From Candidatus Nitrososphaera gargensis Ga9.2 (GTDB lineage Archaea > Thermoproteota > Nitrososphaeria > Nitrososphaerales > Nitrososphaeraceae): a stretch of DNA of 64,000 nt. Numbering within the stretch: the stretch's first letter is position 1; each line of letters opens with the position of its first letter. The DNA is taken from contig NC_018719.1 of the NCBI RefSeq assembly GCF_000303155.1, forward strand, positions 2,666,001 to 2,730,000. The letters are read 5' to 3'. The translations under genes were made by a program, and so were the position numbers. The notes beneath the pieces were generated by a model that saw nothing but the letters and a program-made list of their open reading frames with translations, ran no database searches and had not been told where the DNA came from. This document shows positions 13,025 through 19,008 of the stretch, in pieces.

Positions 13025-13075
13025 GACTAAAGCTTAAAAAGATATAAGCGATCAGTTCTAGTGAACAGCTCTAAG

Positions 13076-14251
13076 ATGCGTAACTTTAGATTCCGTTTGT
13101 ATCCCACGAAAGAACAAGAATCCAAGTTACGAAATTCGTTAGGTGCTTCAAGATGGTTATACAATTATTTTGTCAGCAAGGGAAATCTGCCTATTCAGGA
13201 TACGCAATTCATGCTTACGGAATTAAAAGAGGAAGAAGCTTGGCTAAGGAATTATCATTCGAAGATGTTACAAATGGTTGTTCATAAGATCGACTCAAAT
13301 AGAAAAGTATTGAATGCTTTGCGAATGAACGGCTACAAAATTGGCAAAATGAATTTCATTGGGGAAGAAGACTACAATTCGTTTACTTATAGTCAATCAG
13401 GATTCAGAATAGAGAGACATGGCAATACCGATTTACTTTGGTTATCAAAAATTGGTTATATCGAAATAAGGTTACATCGACATCCTACTAACATTAAACA
13501 GATCACAATAGTTAGAAGAATCAATAAATGGTATGCACTAATTTGCTGTGAAATTGCCAAACCCATCTTCAGGTTTATCAACCCAAAGAAATCTGTAGGA
13601 ATGGATGTTGGTATTACAAAATTCCTCCATGATTCTAACAACAGTACCATAGACAATCCTTTATTCGTAAAAAAGATGCTAAAATCTCTAAGGAGAGCGC
13701 AGCGCAGGTTATCAAGGCGACATAAATATTCAAAGAATCGATTAAAGGCAAAAACTAGATTGCAGATATTGCATGAGAGAATTAGAAATAAGCGGCTGGA
13801 TTTTCTGCATAAAGTATCTACTAGATATTCCAAGAACTATGACGTCATATTCTTGGAGAGGCTAAGAGTATCGAGTATGGTTAAGAACTACCATCTTGCC
13901 AGAAATATCATCGATAGTGGTTGGAGTACCTTCAAGAACATACTTGCTTACAAGACAAAACTTGTCATCGAAGTTCCATCTAACAACACCTCTGTCAATT
14001 GCTCAAAATGTGGAAATAAAGTTCCAAAATCCCTAGCTGTCCGTATTCACAAATGTAATGTATGCAACCTAATGATTGATCGTGATTATAATGCAAGCCT
14101 GAACATCAAGAAGAAAGGCTTGCTTTTACTACTACCGCAGGGACTGTGGGAAGCTACGCCTGTGGAGATTCTAAGCGAGTCAGTGAAGCAGGAACAGAAT
14201 ATCGTACAACGGATAGTAGTCCACTATCGATCGATTGAGGAGACTGTGTAG
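13076..14251 (+). CDS. tnpB: TnpB, IS200/IS605-family RNA-guided nuclease, intact
   Basis: A complete TnpB of 391 residues from the ATG at 13076 (MRNFRFRLYPTKEQ is the family N-terminus; an in-frame GTG at 13061 is the alternative). RuvC-I aspartate lies in GMDVGITKF (about D177), RuvC-II glutamate in FLERL (about E261), the zinc ribbon is C-S-K-C ... C-N-V-C, and RuvC-III is DRDYNASLNI. TnpB cuts DNA guided by an omega-RNA made from the element's 3' end (known for the family). The tail LPQGLWEATPVEIL is typical of archaeal TnpB genes whose 3' end doubles as omega-RNA. No tnpA accompanies it. Its stop is only 2 nt from the polB start codon. Confidence 0.9.
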   Translation: MRNFRFRLYPTKEQESKLRNSLGASRWLYNYFVSKGNLPIQDTQFMLTELKEEEAWLRNYHSKMLQMVVHKIDSNRKVLNALRMNGYKIGKMNFIGEEDYNSFTYSQSGFRIERHGNTDLLWLSKIGYIEIRLHRHPTNIKQITIVRRINKWYALICCEIAKPIFRFINPKKSVGMDVGITKFLHDSNNSTIDNPLFVKKMLKSLRRAQRRLSRRHKYSKNRLKAKTRLQILHERIRNKRLDFLHKVSTRYSKNYDVIFLERLRVSSMVKNYHLARNIIDSGWSTFKNILAYKTKLVIEVPSNNTSVNCSKCGNKVPKSLAVRIHKCNVCNLMIDRDYNASLNIKKKGLLLLLPQGLWEATPVEILSESVKQEQNIVQRIVVHYRSIEETV

Positions 14252-14253
14252 CT

Positions 14254-17200
14254 TTGGCCCAACAGGATTTCGTGCCTGATCGAAGGAAGAGGCTTGATGA
14301 TCTGCCAGAGTTGCCAGAAGGCAGACCGGCGCTTTTACTGTCAGCAGTTTATTCAGGTGAGGAAAAAAAAGTCTACCTAAAGTTTTACGATCCAAAGGAT
14401 AACGTCATTTACCACTGGCGCGACAGGACTGACCACAAGCCCTACTGCTACACCAAGATGCAGTTTGCAGAGCAGGCCGAGCTGGTCGCGCAAAAGGAGA
14501 CAAAGTACACGCTAGAGCAGGTAAAAAAGCGCGACATTATCATCGACAAAGAGATCGATGTGCTAAAGGTGCTGGCGCCTGACCCCCTGTCGATAGGCGG
14601 CACCGACAATAGCTTCCGCGAAAAGGTCACGTCATGGGAATGTTATGATATAGCGACCGAGATACTCACTAAAGAGGGGGGCTGGAAAAGCTATTATCAA
14701 CTACAAGATGATGAAGTAGTTGCTACATACAATGCAACTACTCGTAAATTCGAGTGGCAACAGATTGAAACGAAAGTAGATTACGATTACAGTGGAGACA
14801 TGTATGGCCTGCATGCAAAGACAATAGACTTTCTTGTTACACCGAATCACAGAATTTTTCTGTGGAACGAGAGAGGTGATGTAAAATGTATGCTAGCCAA
14901 GGAACTATATGAACAGCAAGAACAACTAAGACCAAACTATAGACCATTTCCTTTTGGATGGTCTATTCACAAATCTGCCGAGTCTGGGTTCGACGGTGAC
15001 GCAGATATTGATAGGTTTACTCTACCTCAGAGCTCTTGGAGATGCTCTGAAGTAGATATTCCGCTTGAAGAATTTGTTGAGTTTCTAGGATGGTTCATCG
15101 CAGAGGGCGGGGTAGGCGGACTAGGAAATGAGACGTACATCAATTTGATATTATCAACCGACAAGGATCCTTGGCAGCGTCTCAAGCATATGATCGAATC
15201 ATGGGGAATGAAAGTGTGGACTAAGAACAATAATGATACCCACAGTACAATGATTATATTCTCGTCCAAGGACTTGGCAGACTGGATAAGAGCTAATTGC
15301 TATACTTGCTCTATCCACAGATCGCATTACAAAAGAGTGCCAGCAGCAATAAAGAATCTCCCTACAAGATATCTCAAGATTTTCCTGAAAAATCTGTTCC
15401 TTGGAGACGGCTTCCTCCGCGATGGTGATAGTGGTCAGCTGAGGACTACAAGCGAAGCTCTAGCAGATGACATACAGGAAATCGCATGCAAGTGTGGCTA
15501 TTCCGCAACCATCAAACAAAAACCGGCTATTGTTGACAATAGGGGTTGGCAATTTGCTGAAAGCTATGTAGTTACACTATCGACTCACAGGACGGTGACT
15601 AGTCCTAATCAGAGGATAACAAAGCAGCAGTACGTAGGAAAAGTATGGTGCGTCAAAGTTCCAAATGGAATTGTCTATGTTAGGCGTAACAAGAAGCCAT
15701 ATTGGTGCGGCAATAGTGACATCAAGTACCACGAAAACTACCTCTACGATCGCTCGCTGATACCCGGCCTCTATTACATGAGAAAGGGCGAGCAGATAAC
15801 GCCGTTTGAATACCCCATATCTGAGAAGGTGCAGTTTGCCCTCAAGAGCCTGTTGTGGGACAAGATAAAGGAGGCCGGCGAATCGGGCAAAGAATACCGG
15901 CAGTATATCACCAACTGGGCCAACCTGCTCAACCAGCCGATTCCGGAACTAAAGCGGGTCGCAGTGGACATTGAAGTTGAAACAGAAGAGGGCAGGATGC
16001 CAAACCCCCGCGACCACGACAAGCGCGTGACTGCAGTCGGGTTTGTTGCAAGCGACGGCTTTCGGAAGGTGCTTGTGCTTGCGAACAACACGCCAAACAA
16101 CGGCGAGCCGCTCATTCCCGAAGCAGAGCCGTGCAGCACGGAAAAGGAGTTGCTGGAAAAGGCGTTCCGCATAATCAACAAATATCCAATAGTCATCACA
16201 TTCAACGGCGATGACTTTGACCTTCCGTATCTTTATGCGCGGTCGCAGGATTCCCGCATAGACCCAAACGGCGTCGCGATCCCAAAGGACAAGGTGCCGA
16301 TAATGGTCAAGAAAGAGTCGTTCATAAAGCACGGGATGCAAGCCGAGCCGGTCGGGATCAGGCATGGAATACACATCGACCTTTACAGGACGTTTGATAA
16401 CAGGTCGATCCAGATCTACGCTTTCAGCCGGGCGTACACCGAACATACGCTCAATGCTATTTGTGAAGCGCTGCTCAACGACAGCAAGATCGAGTTTGAA
16501 GGCGACATTGCCGACCTCCCGATCCAAAAGCTGGCCGAGTACTGCCTCAAGGACGCCGACCTTACGTACAGGCTGACGAGCTTTAACGACAATCTGCTGA
16601 TGAGGCTGCTGGTCGTCATCTCTAGAATCGGGCGGCTATCGGTGGACGATATTGCGCGCTTTGGGGTCAACCAGTGGATCAGGGGCATCCTGTACTACGA
16701 GCACCGGCAGCGAAACGAACTGATACCTAGCAGGAGCGAGCTGGAGGCAAAGGGCAGCGCGTCGACCACCGCTGTCATAAAGGAAAAGAAATATCGCGGC
16801 GGCGAAGTCGTCGAGCCGACGGCAGGCATACACTTCAACGTAGTGGTCCTTGACTTTGCAAGCCTGTACCCCAGCATCATCAAGGTGCACAACCTGTCGT
16901 ATGAAACGATCAACTGCCCCCACGAAGATTGCAGGGAGAACAAGGTGGAGGGCACGACTCACTGGGTCTGCAAGCGGAAAAAGGGCCTAACATCGCTGCT
17001 CATAGGGTCGCTCCGTGACCTAAGGGTCAACTATTACAAGTATCTAGCAAAAGATAAGACGCTCCCGCCGCAGGAACGCCAGCTATACAACGTCGTAAGC
17101 CAGGCTATCAAGGTCATTCTCAACGCAAGCTATGGCGTCATGGGAGCAGAGATATTTCCACTCTACTGCCTGCCGGTGGCAGACGCAACTGCGGCACTTG

Positions 17201-19008
17201 GCAGGTCGACAATCAACAGGACAATAAACCGGTGCAAGGAGATAGGCATAGAGGTTGTCTACGGCGACAGTGTTCTTCCAGATACGCCGATTGTAATTCG
17301 GAGGAAAGATAAGAGCATAGATATTGTTCCCATTGAATCCTTGATGCCTAAAACGGTGACTGCTTCTAGATATGTAGGTTTTGGAAACATTGAAGTACTA
17401 ACGGAGTCAGGCTTTAGCGGAATAAAATATGTCTATAGACACAAAGTAAAAAAGAAAGGATACAGGATACTGACAAGAAAAGGATTTGTTGAATGTACAG
17501 AAGATCATAGCTTGGTCGTAAATAATAAAGAAATTAAGCCCTCAGAGTTGAGGATTGGAGATAGGATTGAGTTAGTCCCCTTCAAGACACAGTCCCTCTT
17601 TGGCATTGATCCAGATTTGGCTTGGCTATTCGGTTTCTTTATTGCAGGGGGCACCTGTGGAACATATTATTATAGTCCGGCGTCAGAAACCGCATCAAAA
17701 ACTCTTCAGATAAAATATTCTTGGAAAATTGCGAACCAAAATGAAGCAGCGCTTATGAAAGCTCAAAGAATAATGCAGCAACATTTGGGATTAGAAACTA
17801 ATGTTATAGATACTCGTAAAAGCTCTGCAACATACGCTCTTGTCCCAAGAAAGGAGATCAAGATGCTGGTTGACTATTTCAGACTCTTGTGTTATCGGGG
17901 CTCAAACAAGGCAATACCTCAATGCATATTGAATGCCAATATTGAAGCAAAGAAGGCGTTTATTGAAGGGCTAATGGTTGGAGATGGCAACATGGATGAA
18001 AATGGTCTAGTAACCCTTGATCAAATACATAAGACAGTATCGGCGGGAGTGGTTGCAATTTTAGAGGAATTAGGAATGGAGTATTCTCTTCAAATTAGAG
18101 ATGATAAGACTAATGTCTGTAGAATTAGGATAATCAAAGATGCATCTGACAAGCGAATAAAGCAAGCGGATATTATAAAGAAAATTGAAGTCTTTGAAAT
18201 AGACGACTATGTATACGACCTAGAAACTGAGAATCACCACTTTTGTGGTGGTATAGGTAATGTTTTGTTGCATAATACTGACTCGCTCTTTTTGAAGAAC
18301 CCATCGCCCACCGCAATAGACGAAGTGGCAGCGTGGGCGCGCAACACCCTTGGAGTCGATCTAGAGATAGACAAGCAATACAGGTACGTCGTTTTCAGCG
18401 ACCTGAAAAAGAACTACCTTGGAGTGCTATCAGACGGGACTGTGGATGTCAAGGGCCTGACAGGCAAAAAGTCGCACACGCCACCTTTCATCAGGAAGGC
18501 GTTCTATGACATCTTGGCGATACTTGGCAGGGTCAACTCTGAGAAAGATTTCGAGTCTGCGAAGGAGAGCATCAAGAACGTCATCCTGCAAAACGCCAAG
18601 AATTTAGAGGCGCGCAAGATCCCACTTGAAGACCTGAGCTTTAATGTCACCATAAACAAGTCGCTGAGCACGTACGGCAAAAAGACCGGGGCCAAGACCG
18701 TGGACGGCAGGAGCACCGATACGTACAAGGGGCTCCCGCAGCACATTAAGGCGGCCAAGATGCTGGTGGATGCAAACAAGCGCGAGATCCGCGCCGGCGA
18801 CGTGATTTCATATGTGAAAATAAAGAATGGCGAAGGTGTCAAGCCGGTAGAGCTGGCCAAGCCTGAAGAGATCGACACTGAGAAATACCTTGAGACAATG
18901 GAGTCGACGTTTGAGCAGGTGCTCTCTGCGCTCAACTTTGACTTCAAGTCCGTGCTTGGCAAGCCGCGGCAGCAGAGCCTCGACGAGCTTTTCTGGAGCA
19001 GGTCTTGA
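14254..19008 (+). CDS. polB: Family B DNA polymerase precursor containing two inteins
   Basis: Replicative/repair DNA polymerase B; the 1584-residue precursor leaves about 890 residues after removal of two inteins (358 and 336 residues). Exonuclease motifs are VAVDIEVE (Exo I), TFNGDDFDLPYLYAR (Exo II) and YCLKDADLTYRL (Exo III). Polymerase motifs are DFASLYPS (A), KVILNASYG (B) and YGD-TDS (C), the last split by intein 2. A KKSHTPPF segment lies after motif C. The start is TTG at 14254 with an AGGAG-like ribosome site about 10 nt upstream, inside the end of tnpB. The native promoter is therefore probably displaced or lies in the transposon end. The two inteins are clearly AT-richer than the exteins. 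Confidence 0.96.
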   Translation: MAQQDFVPDRRKRLDDLPELPEGRPALLLSAVYSGEEKKVYLKFYDPKDNVIYHWRDRTDHKPYCYTKMQFAEQAELVAQKETKYTLEQVKKRDIIIDKEIDVLKVLAPDPLSIGGTDNSFREKVTSWECYDIATEILTKEGGWKSYYQLQDDEVVATYNATTRKFEWQQIETKVDYDYSGDMYGLHAKTIDFLVTPNHRIFLWNERGDVKCMLAKELYEQQEQLRPNYRPFPFGWSIHKSAESGFDGDADIDRFTLPQSSWRCSEVDIPLEEFVEFLGWFIAEGGVGGLGNETYINLILSTDKDPWQRLKHMIESWGMKVWTKNNNDTHSTMIIFSSKDLADWIRANCYTCSIHRSHYKRVPAAIKNLPTRYLKIFLKNLFLGDGFLRDGDSGQLRTTSEALADDIQEIACKCGYSATIKQKPAIVDNRGWQFAESYVVTLSTHRTVTSPNQRITKQQYVGKVWCVKVPNGIVYVRRNKKPYWCGNSDIKYHENYLYDRSLIPGLYYMRKGEQITPFEYPISEKVQFALKSLLWDKIKEAGESGKEYRQYITNWANLLNQPIPELKRVAVDIEVETEEGRMPNPRDHDKRVTAVGFVASDGFRKVLVLANNTPNNGEPLIPEAEPCSTEKELLEKAFRIINKYPIVITFNGDDFDLPYLYARSQDSRIDPNGVAIPKDKVPIMVKKESFIKHGMQAEPVGIRHGIHIDLYRTFDNRSIQIYAFSRAYTEHTLNAICEALLNDSKIEFEGDIADLPIQKLAEYCLKDADLTYRLTSFNDNLLMRLLVVISRIGRLSVDDIARFGVNQWIRGILYYEHRQRNELIPSRSELEAKGSASTTAVIKEKKYRGGEVVEPTAGIHFNVVVLDFASLYPSIIKVHNLSYETINCPHEDCRENKVEGTTHWVCKRKKGLTSLLIGSLRDLRVNYYKYLAKDKTLPPQERQLYNVVSQAIKVILNASYGVMGAEIFPLYCLPVADATAALGRSTINRTINRCKEIGIEVVYGDSVLPDTPIVIRRKDKSIDIVPIESLMPKTVTASRYVGFGNIEVLTESGFSGIKYVYRHKVKKKGYRILTRKGFVECTEDHSLVVNNKEIKPSELRIGDRIELVPFKTQSLFGIDPDLAWLFGFFIAGGTCGTYYYSPASETASKTLQIKYSWKIANQNEAALMKAQRIMQQHLGLETNVIDTRKSSATYALVPRKEIKMLVDYFRLLCYRGSNKAIPQCILNANIEAKKAFIEGLMVGDGNMDENGLVTLDQIHKTVSAGVVAILEELGMEYSLQIRDDKTNVCRIRIIKDASDKRIKQADIIKKIEVFEIDDYVYDLETENHHFCGGIGNVLLHNTDSLFLKNPSPTAIDEVAAWARNTLGVDLEIDKQYRYVVFSDLKKNYLGVLSDGTVDVKGLTGKKSHTPPFIRKAFYDILAILGRVNSEKDFESAKESIKNVILQNAKNLEARKIPLEDLSFNVTINKSLSTYGKKTGAKTVDGRSTDTYKGLPQHIKAAKMLVDANKREIRAGDVISYVKIKNGEGVKPVELAKPEEIDTEKYLETMESTFEQVLSALNFDFKSVLGKPRQQSLDELFWSRS
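14641..15714 (+). other. Intein 1 in PolB, N-terminal domain insertion, with LAGLIDADG endonuclease
   Basis: 358 residues between extein residues ..VTSWE and SDIKYHENY... It starts with Cys (CYDIATEILTKEGGWK), has a block B histidine in LVTPNHRIF, and ends RRNKKPYWCGN before a +1 Ser. The penultimate residue is Gly instead of the usual His. Two homing-endonuclease motifs are intact: FLGWFIAEGG and LKNLFLGDGF. The insertion lies in the N-terminal domain at the segment equivalent to the D-I-x-x-x-x-x-Y-L-x-D stretch of archaeal PolB, not in polymerase motifs A, B or C where most PolB inteins sit. Confidence 0.92.
17269..18276 (+). other. Intein 2 in PolB, at motif C (YGD/TDS), endonuclease probably defective
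   Basis: 336 residues inserted exactly between YGD and TDS of polymerase motif C, the classic pol-c site. It begins with Ser (SVLPDTPIVIRR), has block B CTEDHSLV and ends GNVLLHN before a +1 Thr, so the splicing residues look complete. Of the two endonuclease motifs, the second (FIEGLMVGDGN) keeps its aspartate. The first reads LFGFFIAGGT, with Gly (codon 17647-17649) where the acidic catalytic residue is expected. The homing activity is probably lost while splicing is kept, as it must be for the polymerase to function. Confidence 0.92.

Follow-up and report, generated by a model that had tools for sequence, protein, structure and literature searches.

The polB1 locus and its two inteins

The genome of Candidatus Nitrososphaera gargensis consists of one contig of 2,833,868 bases (completeness 99.85%, contamination 0.67%). 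In the window analyzed, a stretch of 64,000 nucleotides whose numbering is used throughout, the family-B DNA polymerase PolB1 is encoded by an open reading frame of 1584 amino acids (14254-19008, +) that is unbroken across two inteins. The N-extein (14254..14640, +; 129 amino acids ending in ...VTSWE, GC3 0.64), defined by the reading frame and by relatives, is followed by intein 1 (14641..15714, +), a 358-amino-acid element of the class-1 type with a LAGLIDADG endonuclease, assigned from Pfam, relatives, and a structural model. The middle extein (15715..17268, +) comprises, according to relatives and Pfam, the exonuclease domain and the first part of the polymerase domain. It leads into intein 2 (17269..18276, +; 336 amino acids), which lies at the pol-c site between YGD and TDS, starts with Ser1, and ends in HN before Thr. 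The C-extein including the stop codon (18277..19008, +) was again delimited by reading frame and relatives. Without both inteins, PolB1 has 890 amino acids and aligns over almost its full length with about 50 PolB1 proteins of the family that have no insert; the nearest solved structure to the uninterrupted protein is that of Sulfolobus PolB1 (1S5J, E = 3.5e-180). The GC3 values of intein 1 (0.41) and intein 2 (0.34) are low compared with those of the exteins (0.64-0.72), which fits a foreign origin of both elements.

Two further features of the locus were observed. In intein 2, the acidic residue of the first LAGLIDADG motif is replaced by Gly (FFIAGG), and the second motif is intact; pol-c inteins resembling it are present in Nitrosopumilaceae (loci L177, L185, L188, and L189). 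Upstream of polB1, a TnpB/IS605 OrfB-like gene (13061-14251, +) with a low GC content of 0.37 is separated from the start of polB1 by two bases, and polB1 would be overlapped by the right end of this gene and by any guide RNA.

Intein 1 spans exactly 358 codons, in frame, and its junctions read ...VTSWE before CYDIATEIL and KPYWCGN before SDIKYHENYLYD, with Glu preceding Cys1 and Ser following the terminal Gly-Asn. Splicing block A (CYDIATEILTKEGGWK, 14641..14688, +) contains the nucleophile Cys1, and C1, T6, L9, T10, and G14 are invariant in an alignment with 37 relatives, as are T67 and H70 of the block B core T67-P-N-H70 (14839..14850, +). The first LAGLIDADG motif (FLGWFIAEGG, 15082..15111, +) provides Glu155, a position that is acidic in 34 of the 37 relatives, and the second (...LFLGDGF, 15379..15414, +) provides Asp256, conserved as Asp in 35 of them. 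The Pfam domain LAGLIDADG_3 (PF14528) was matched with E = 8e-8, the second motif lying in the match that begins at residue 247. Blocks F and G (...KVWCVKVPNGIVYVRRNKKPYWCGN, 15628..15714, +) contain Cys337 (36/37), Arg348, Arg349, and Gly357, the latter three invariant in the 37 aligned family members, and the terminal Asn358. The +1 extein residue (15715..15717, +) is Ser (AGT), the predicted second splicing nucleophile. An AlphaFold2 model built from the 37-sequence alignment reached a mean pLDDT of 92.3 and a pTM of 0.92, and Foldseek returned the TliVMA intein as top match (E = 6.6e-17), followed by PI-SceI (5e-14). The predicted fold is that of an intein with a homing endonuclease.

These features place intein 1 in class 1. 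A Cys or Ser at position 1 is present as the invariant Cys1, the block B T-x-x-H as T67-P-N-H70, and the C-terminal Asn (or Gln/Asp) followed by Ser, Thr, or Cys as Asn358 and Ser +1; the modeled HINT splicing fold matches that of TliVMA and PI-SceI. The penultimate His that is usual, though not obligatory, is Gly357 in intein 1, and its absence is no ground for exclusion from class 1 (PMC7664689). Class-3 inteins are devoid of a position-1 nucleophile and carry a W-C-T triplet; intein 1 has Cys1, and although the block F Cys is present (Cys337), Cys356 stands in place of the Thr before the block G Gly. Both LAGLIDADG motifs end in their catalytic acid (E155 and D256). The assignment of the insert as an intein is well beyond chance, and a prior reading of the window from its letters alone (the sequence-only reading) had already proposed it with exact coordinates and with intact LAGLIDADG motifs, in agreement with the blocks and the predicted fold. 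Overall, intein 1 is a class-1 intein, probably functional and probably homing-competent, and it may be homing.

Insertion site and distribution of the allele

Intein 1 is inserted after extein residue 129, between Glu129 and Ser130, and coincides with none of the PolB1 motifs A, B, and C (residues 509, 595, and 645). The sequence-only reading was thus right in placing it in the N-terminal part, away from the pol-a, pol-b, and pol-c sites, but its description of the position as non-motif did not hold, since the site lies in the strongly conserved motif WE[A/S]DIKY(H/Y)ENYLYD. Across 31 family sequences, the 14 residues WESDIKYHENYLYD have a mean majority identity of 0.98, equal to that of the catalytic motifs, and the 20-residue segment 128-147 is more conserved than 99.5% of the N-terminal segments and 92% of all segments of this length. 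The motif is kept across a wider alignment that includes Sulfolobus. In an alignment with KOD polymerase, the junction corresponds to Glu111 and Tyr112; the local stretch is short and weak when taken alone (5.9 bits), but it is anchored because the same conserved motif is present. In the KOD structure, Glu111, Tyr112, Asp113, Ile114 through Ala117, and Arg119 are among the residues that surround uracil in the read-ahead pocket (PMC8596578). By alignment, the intein 1 site corresponds to the pocket that senses uracil and hypoxanthine in other archaeal B-family polymerases; archaeal polymerases use it to recognize deaminated bases in the template. Inteins prefer conserved sites (PMC2814812), and the position of intein 1 fits this preference; it lends support to the rule of intein insertion at conserved, functionally important spots, even beyond the catalytic center.

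The residue directly after the site is Ala (GCN) in all 30 readable intein-free relatives of the family, and Ser (AGT) was found only in the intein-bearing gene; the two codons are separated by two substitutions. Class-1 splicing requires Ser, Thr, or Cys at the +1 position. Since a +1 nucleophile is needed and, within the family, Ser occurs only together with the intein, the coupled Ala-to-Ser change supports the predicted boundary and suggests that splicing of intein 1 may be under selection. Ser at +1 tied to occupancy also offers a simple test case of an intein colonizing a site that had no splicing nucleophile. The sampled Nitrosopumilaceae and a neighboring family also have Ser at +1, encoded by TCN, with no intein at this site. 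A co-conversion donor from Nitrosopumilaceae was considered and found unsupported, as their codon is TCN versus AGT here and the flanks are Nitrososphaera-like.

Comparison with other Nitrososphaera PolB genes, which the sequence-only reading had suggested, revealed no second copy of the allele in 18 genomes of the genus and 70 of the family. An 80-amino-acid probe across the site matched in 365 of 400 genomes of the class, and an 83-position profile in 383 of 398 genomes of the phylum; in both sets, an intein-sized split was found only in N. gargensis. A haloarchaeal probe matched in 293 of 294 Halobacteria genomes, none of which had an intein in this stretch. The class, phylum, and Halobacteria sets are partly overlapping samples, and these counts thus show rarity, not absence elsewhere. 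Part of the matches were read residue by residue; of the weak, doubled, or split ones that were examined as candidate hidden inteins, none proved to be one. They were contig ends (G001 and G251), duplicate contigs, a frameshift (G449), or short loops (G548 and G632). Gaps of 8-15 amino acids at the site in several Thermoproteota families, deduced from match coordinates, were not inteins either, and one genome (G643) gave no usable match over the site.

DNA-pattern scans with the single intein 1 sequence yielded no close relative in genome or viral contigs; alignment searches reached the intein 1 family where these patterns failed. PADLOC gave no match, and these searches found no donor of intein 1. 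The lower GC3 and the patchy distribution fit a mobile element.

The Gly-Asn intein family

Full-length relatives of intein 1 were found in archaea and phages at approximately 25-37% identity, and the Gly-Asn intein family as a whole spans archaea, bacteria, and phages. The scans of the collections relied on a purely N-terminal pattern (C[YF]DxxTE[IV]LT), so that the ending was not directly selected for, and the relatives counted for their ending were those most similar overall among the pattern matches. Among the best 80 genome relatives, the ending is GN in 76 and GQ in four; among the best 80 relatives on viral contigs, 73 end in GN. The GN ending was also present in 26 of 27 class-level loci and in all eight phage examples inspected, seven of them at the end of the alignment and one in its complete open reading frame. 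Intein 1 also lacks the block F His that many relatives have (VPN-G versus VPN-H). The sequence-only reading had noted correctly that Gly replaces the penultimate His (Gly357) but had taken this as unusual, whereas it is the rule in the family. We therefore dropped the idea that the penultimate Gly marks degeneration: it is common to the whole Gly-Asn family and no sign of decay. In this large group, a missing His is thus not to be taken for decay, and it deserves a mechanistic test.

The relatives reside in AAA ATPases, ATP-grasp proteins, radical SAM enzymes, phage thymidylate synthases, and ribonucleotide reductases. One of them is located in an ATP-grasp gene of the same genome and is not a close sister of intein 1 in the tree, where intein 1 forms a long branch with no close relative and no supported sister. 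This PurD-like ATP-grasp gene has its Gly-Asn intein (1063540-1064580 of the genome contig) between STGEMG and T; one congener (contig C59 of G034) and further archaea (L046, L049, L113, and L133) have Gly-Asn inteins at the same ATP-grasp site.

Two further readings were considered, which we regard as quite improbable. For the family as a whole, terminal Asn cyclization would proceed in Gly-Asn inteins via a different catalytic arrangement, in which the invariant Arg-Arg pair and the block F Cys may replace the usual His/Asp helpers. For intein 1, with a site inside the sensing pocket, slow or conditional splicing would uncouple the making of the polymerase from the sensing of damage.

Predicted splicing and homing, and comparison with known systems

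Very likely, intein 1, which sits between Glu129 and Ser130 of PolB1 at the position aligned to the sensing pocket, splices in cis by the class-1 route and includes a LAGLIDADG homing endonuclease with two motifs. Its anatomy, fold prediction, exact site, distribution, and family membership are directly supported, and from these we infer the following course of splicing, cleavage, and mobility. Cys1 would make the N-S acyl shift, helped by T67 and H70 of block B, and the N-extein would pass to Ser130 (+1) by transesterification. Asn358 would then cyclize with no penultimate His, as appears normal for the Gly-Asn family, and the exteins would be ligated. The endonuclease would spread the element by cutting polB1 alleles that are free of the intein, at their joined WE-[S/A]DIKY sequence. 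All class-1 splicing residues are present in intein 1 and common to its relatives, and exact empty-site counterparts exist.

Because no second copy of the allele was found in the genus and family genomes, intein 1 could be an old copy or one left stranded. A degenerate or dead-end element, with an inactive endonuclease and persisting only because precise deletion is rare, is an unlikely explanation but one to be weighed: the long branch and the single known copy of the allele speak for it, as does the neighboring pol-c intein that has lost an endonuclease acid, whereas the frame, both LAGLIDADG acids, and the predicted fold of intein 1 itself are intact. Splicing could also be slow or conditional, because the block F and penultimate His are absent and intein 1 forms a long branch with no close relative. 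Taken further, impaired or conditional splicing would make intein 1 a switch that holds PolB1 inactive until a signal such as redox state or temperature arrives. Neither of the two His residues that usually help in Asn cyclization is present, C1, C337, and C356 would allow redox chemistry, and the base-sensing pocket is, by alignment, the part of the enzyme that is split. The family, however, is built with Gly at this position, and the single tested phage case spliced faster with Gly than with His (PMC5050341), which makes a switch very improbable. That the insert is an artefact of assembly or annotation, or that its boundaries are wrong, as its occurrence in one genome only might suggest, is hardly credible given the single-contig genome of the completeness and contamination stated above, the frame continuous through both inteins, boundaries that agree with intein blocks A and G and with the extein of about 50 relatives, and two inteins reported independently in the accessible text of PMC4104785.

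The reading as a class-1 homing intein agrees with several known systems in part. TliVMA (7QSS, 7QSU) and PI-SceI share its overall fold of splicing domain plus LAGLIDADG endonuclease, at approximately 10-15% identity and in other host proteins. The RDF intein of mycobacteriophage Bethlehem gp51 is, according to its published description, similar in its penultimate Gly; with its Gly-Asn end it splices well, and the G316H variant was slower (PMC5050341). It differs from intein 1 in host gene and site.

With regard to the host protein, the accessible text of Makarova et al. 2014 (PMC4104785) states that N. gargensis alone carried two PolB1 inteins. Gene and elements are very probably those described here; that text gives their presence only, with no site, termini, pocket, or family. 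The two-intein state itself is thus already published, and the exact intein 1 site may have been undescribed before: no description of it was found in open-access literature text. The known archaeal alleles pol-a, pol-b, and pol-c are also PolB inteins, but their insertion points are in motifs A, B, and C of the polymerase, unlike that of intein 1. For haloarchaeal polB, a 2023 paper reports three intein sites (PMC10643990), and the accessible part of the halobacterial catalogues lists alleles polB-a to -d, with polB-d in 6 of 118 genomes (PMC4071816). The polB-d allele is probably located elsewhere than intein 1, because none of the 293 matched Halobacteria has an intein in this N-terminal stretch.

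Three Nitrosopumilaceae loci of one genus (L054-L056) have GN-type inteins in thaumarchaeal PolB1, of the same broad family and in the same host protein family as intein 1; they occupy the pol-a site between DFA and SLYPSI and do not group with it in the tree. With these loci, the 2014 statement that PolB1 inteins occur only in N. gargensis is outdated. In another family of the order, a 2068-amino-acid open frame (L184, genome G256) encodes a PolB1 with three inteins: one at pol-b that ends in G-Q, one at pol-c, and a third at an unusual position directly after LTGKK in the C-terminal part. A virus-assigned PolB1 (L317, IMG/VR contig 3300031898, 3001-3999), 38% identical to the PolB1 studied here, contains an intein of the Gly-Asn type like intein 1, at a different site in the palm region between PVSE and SVTAIGR, of which we know no description; it was left out of the tree. 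Viruses are plausible carriers of intein 1-type elements, since a viral contig has a PolB1 with a GN intein at this further site. Next to these alleles, intein 1 seems to represent one more insertion site in archaeal PolB, one of the classic intein hosts.
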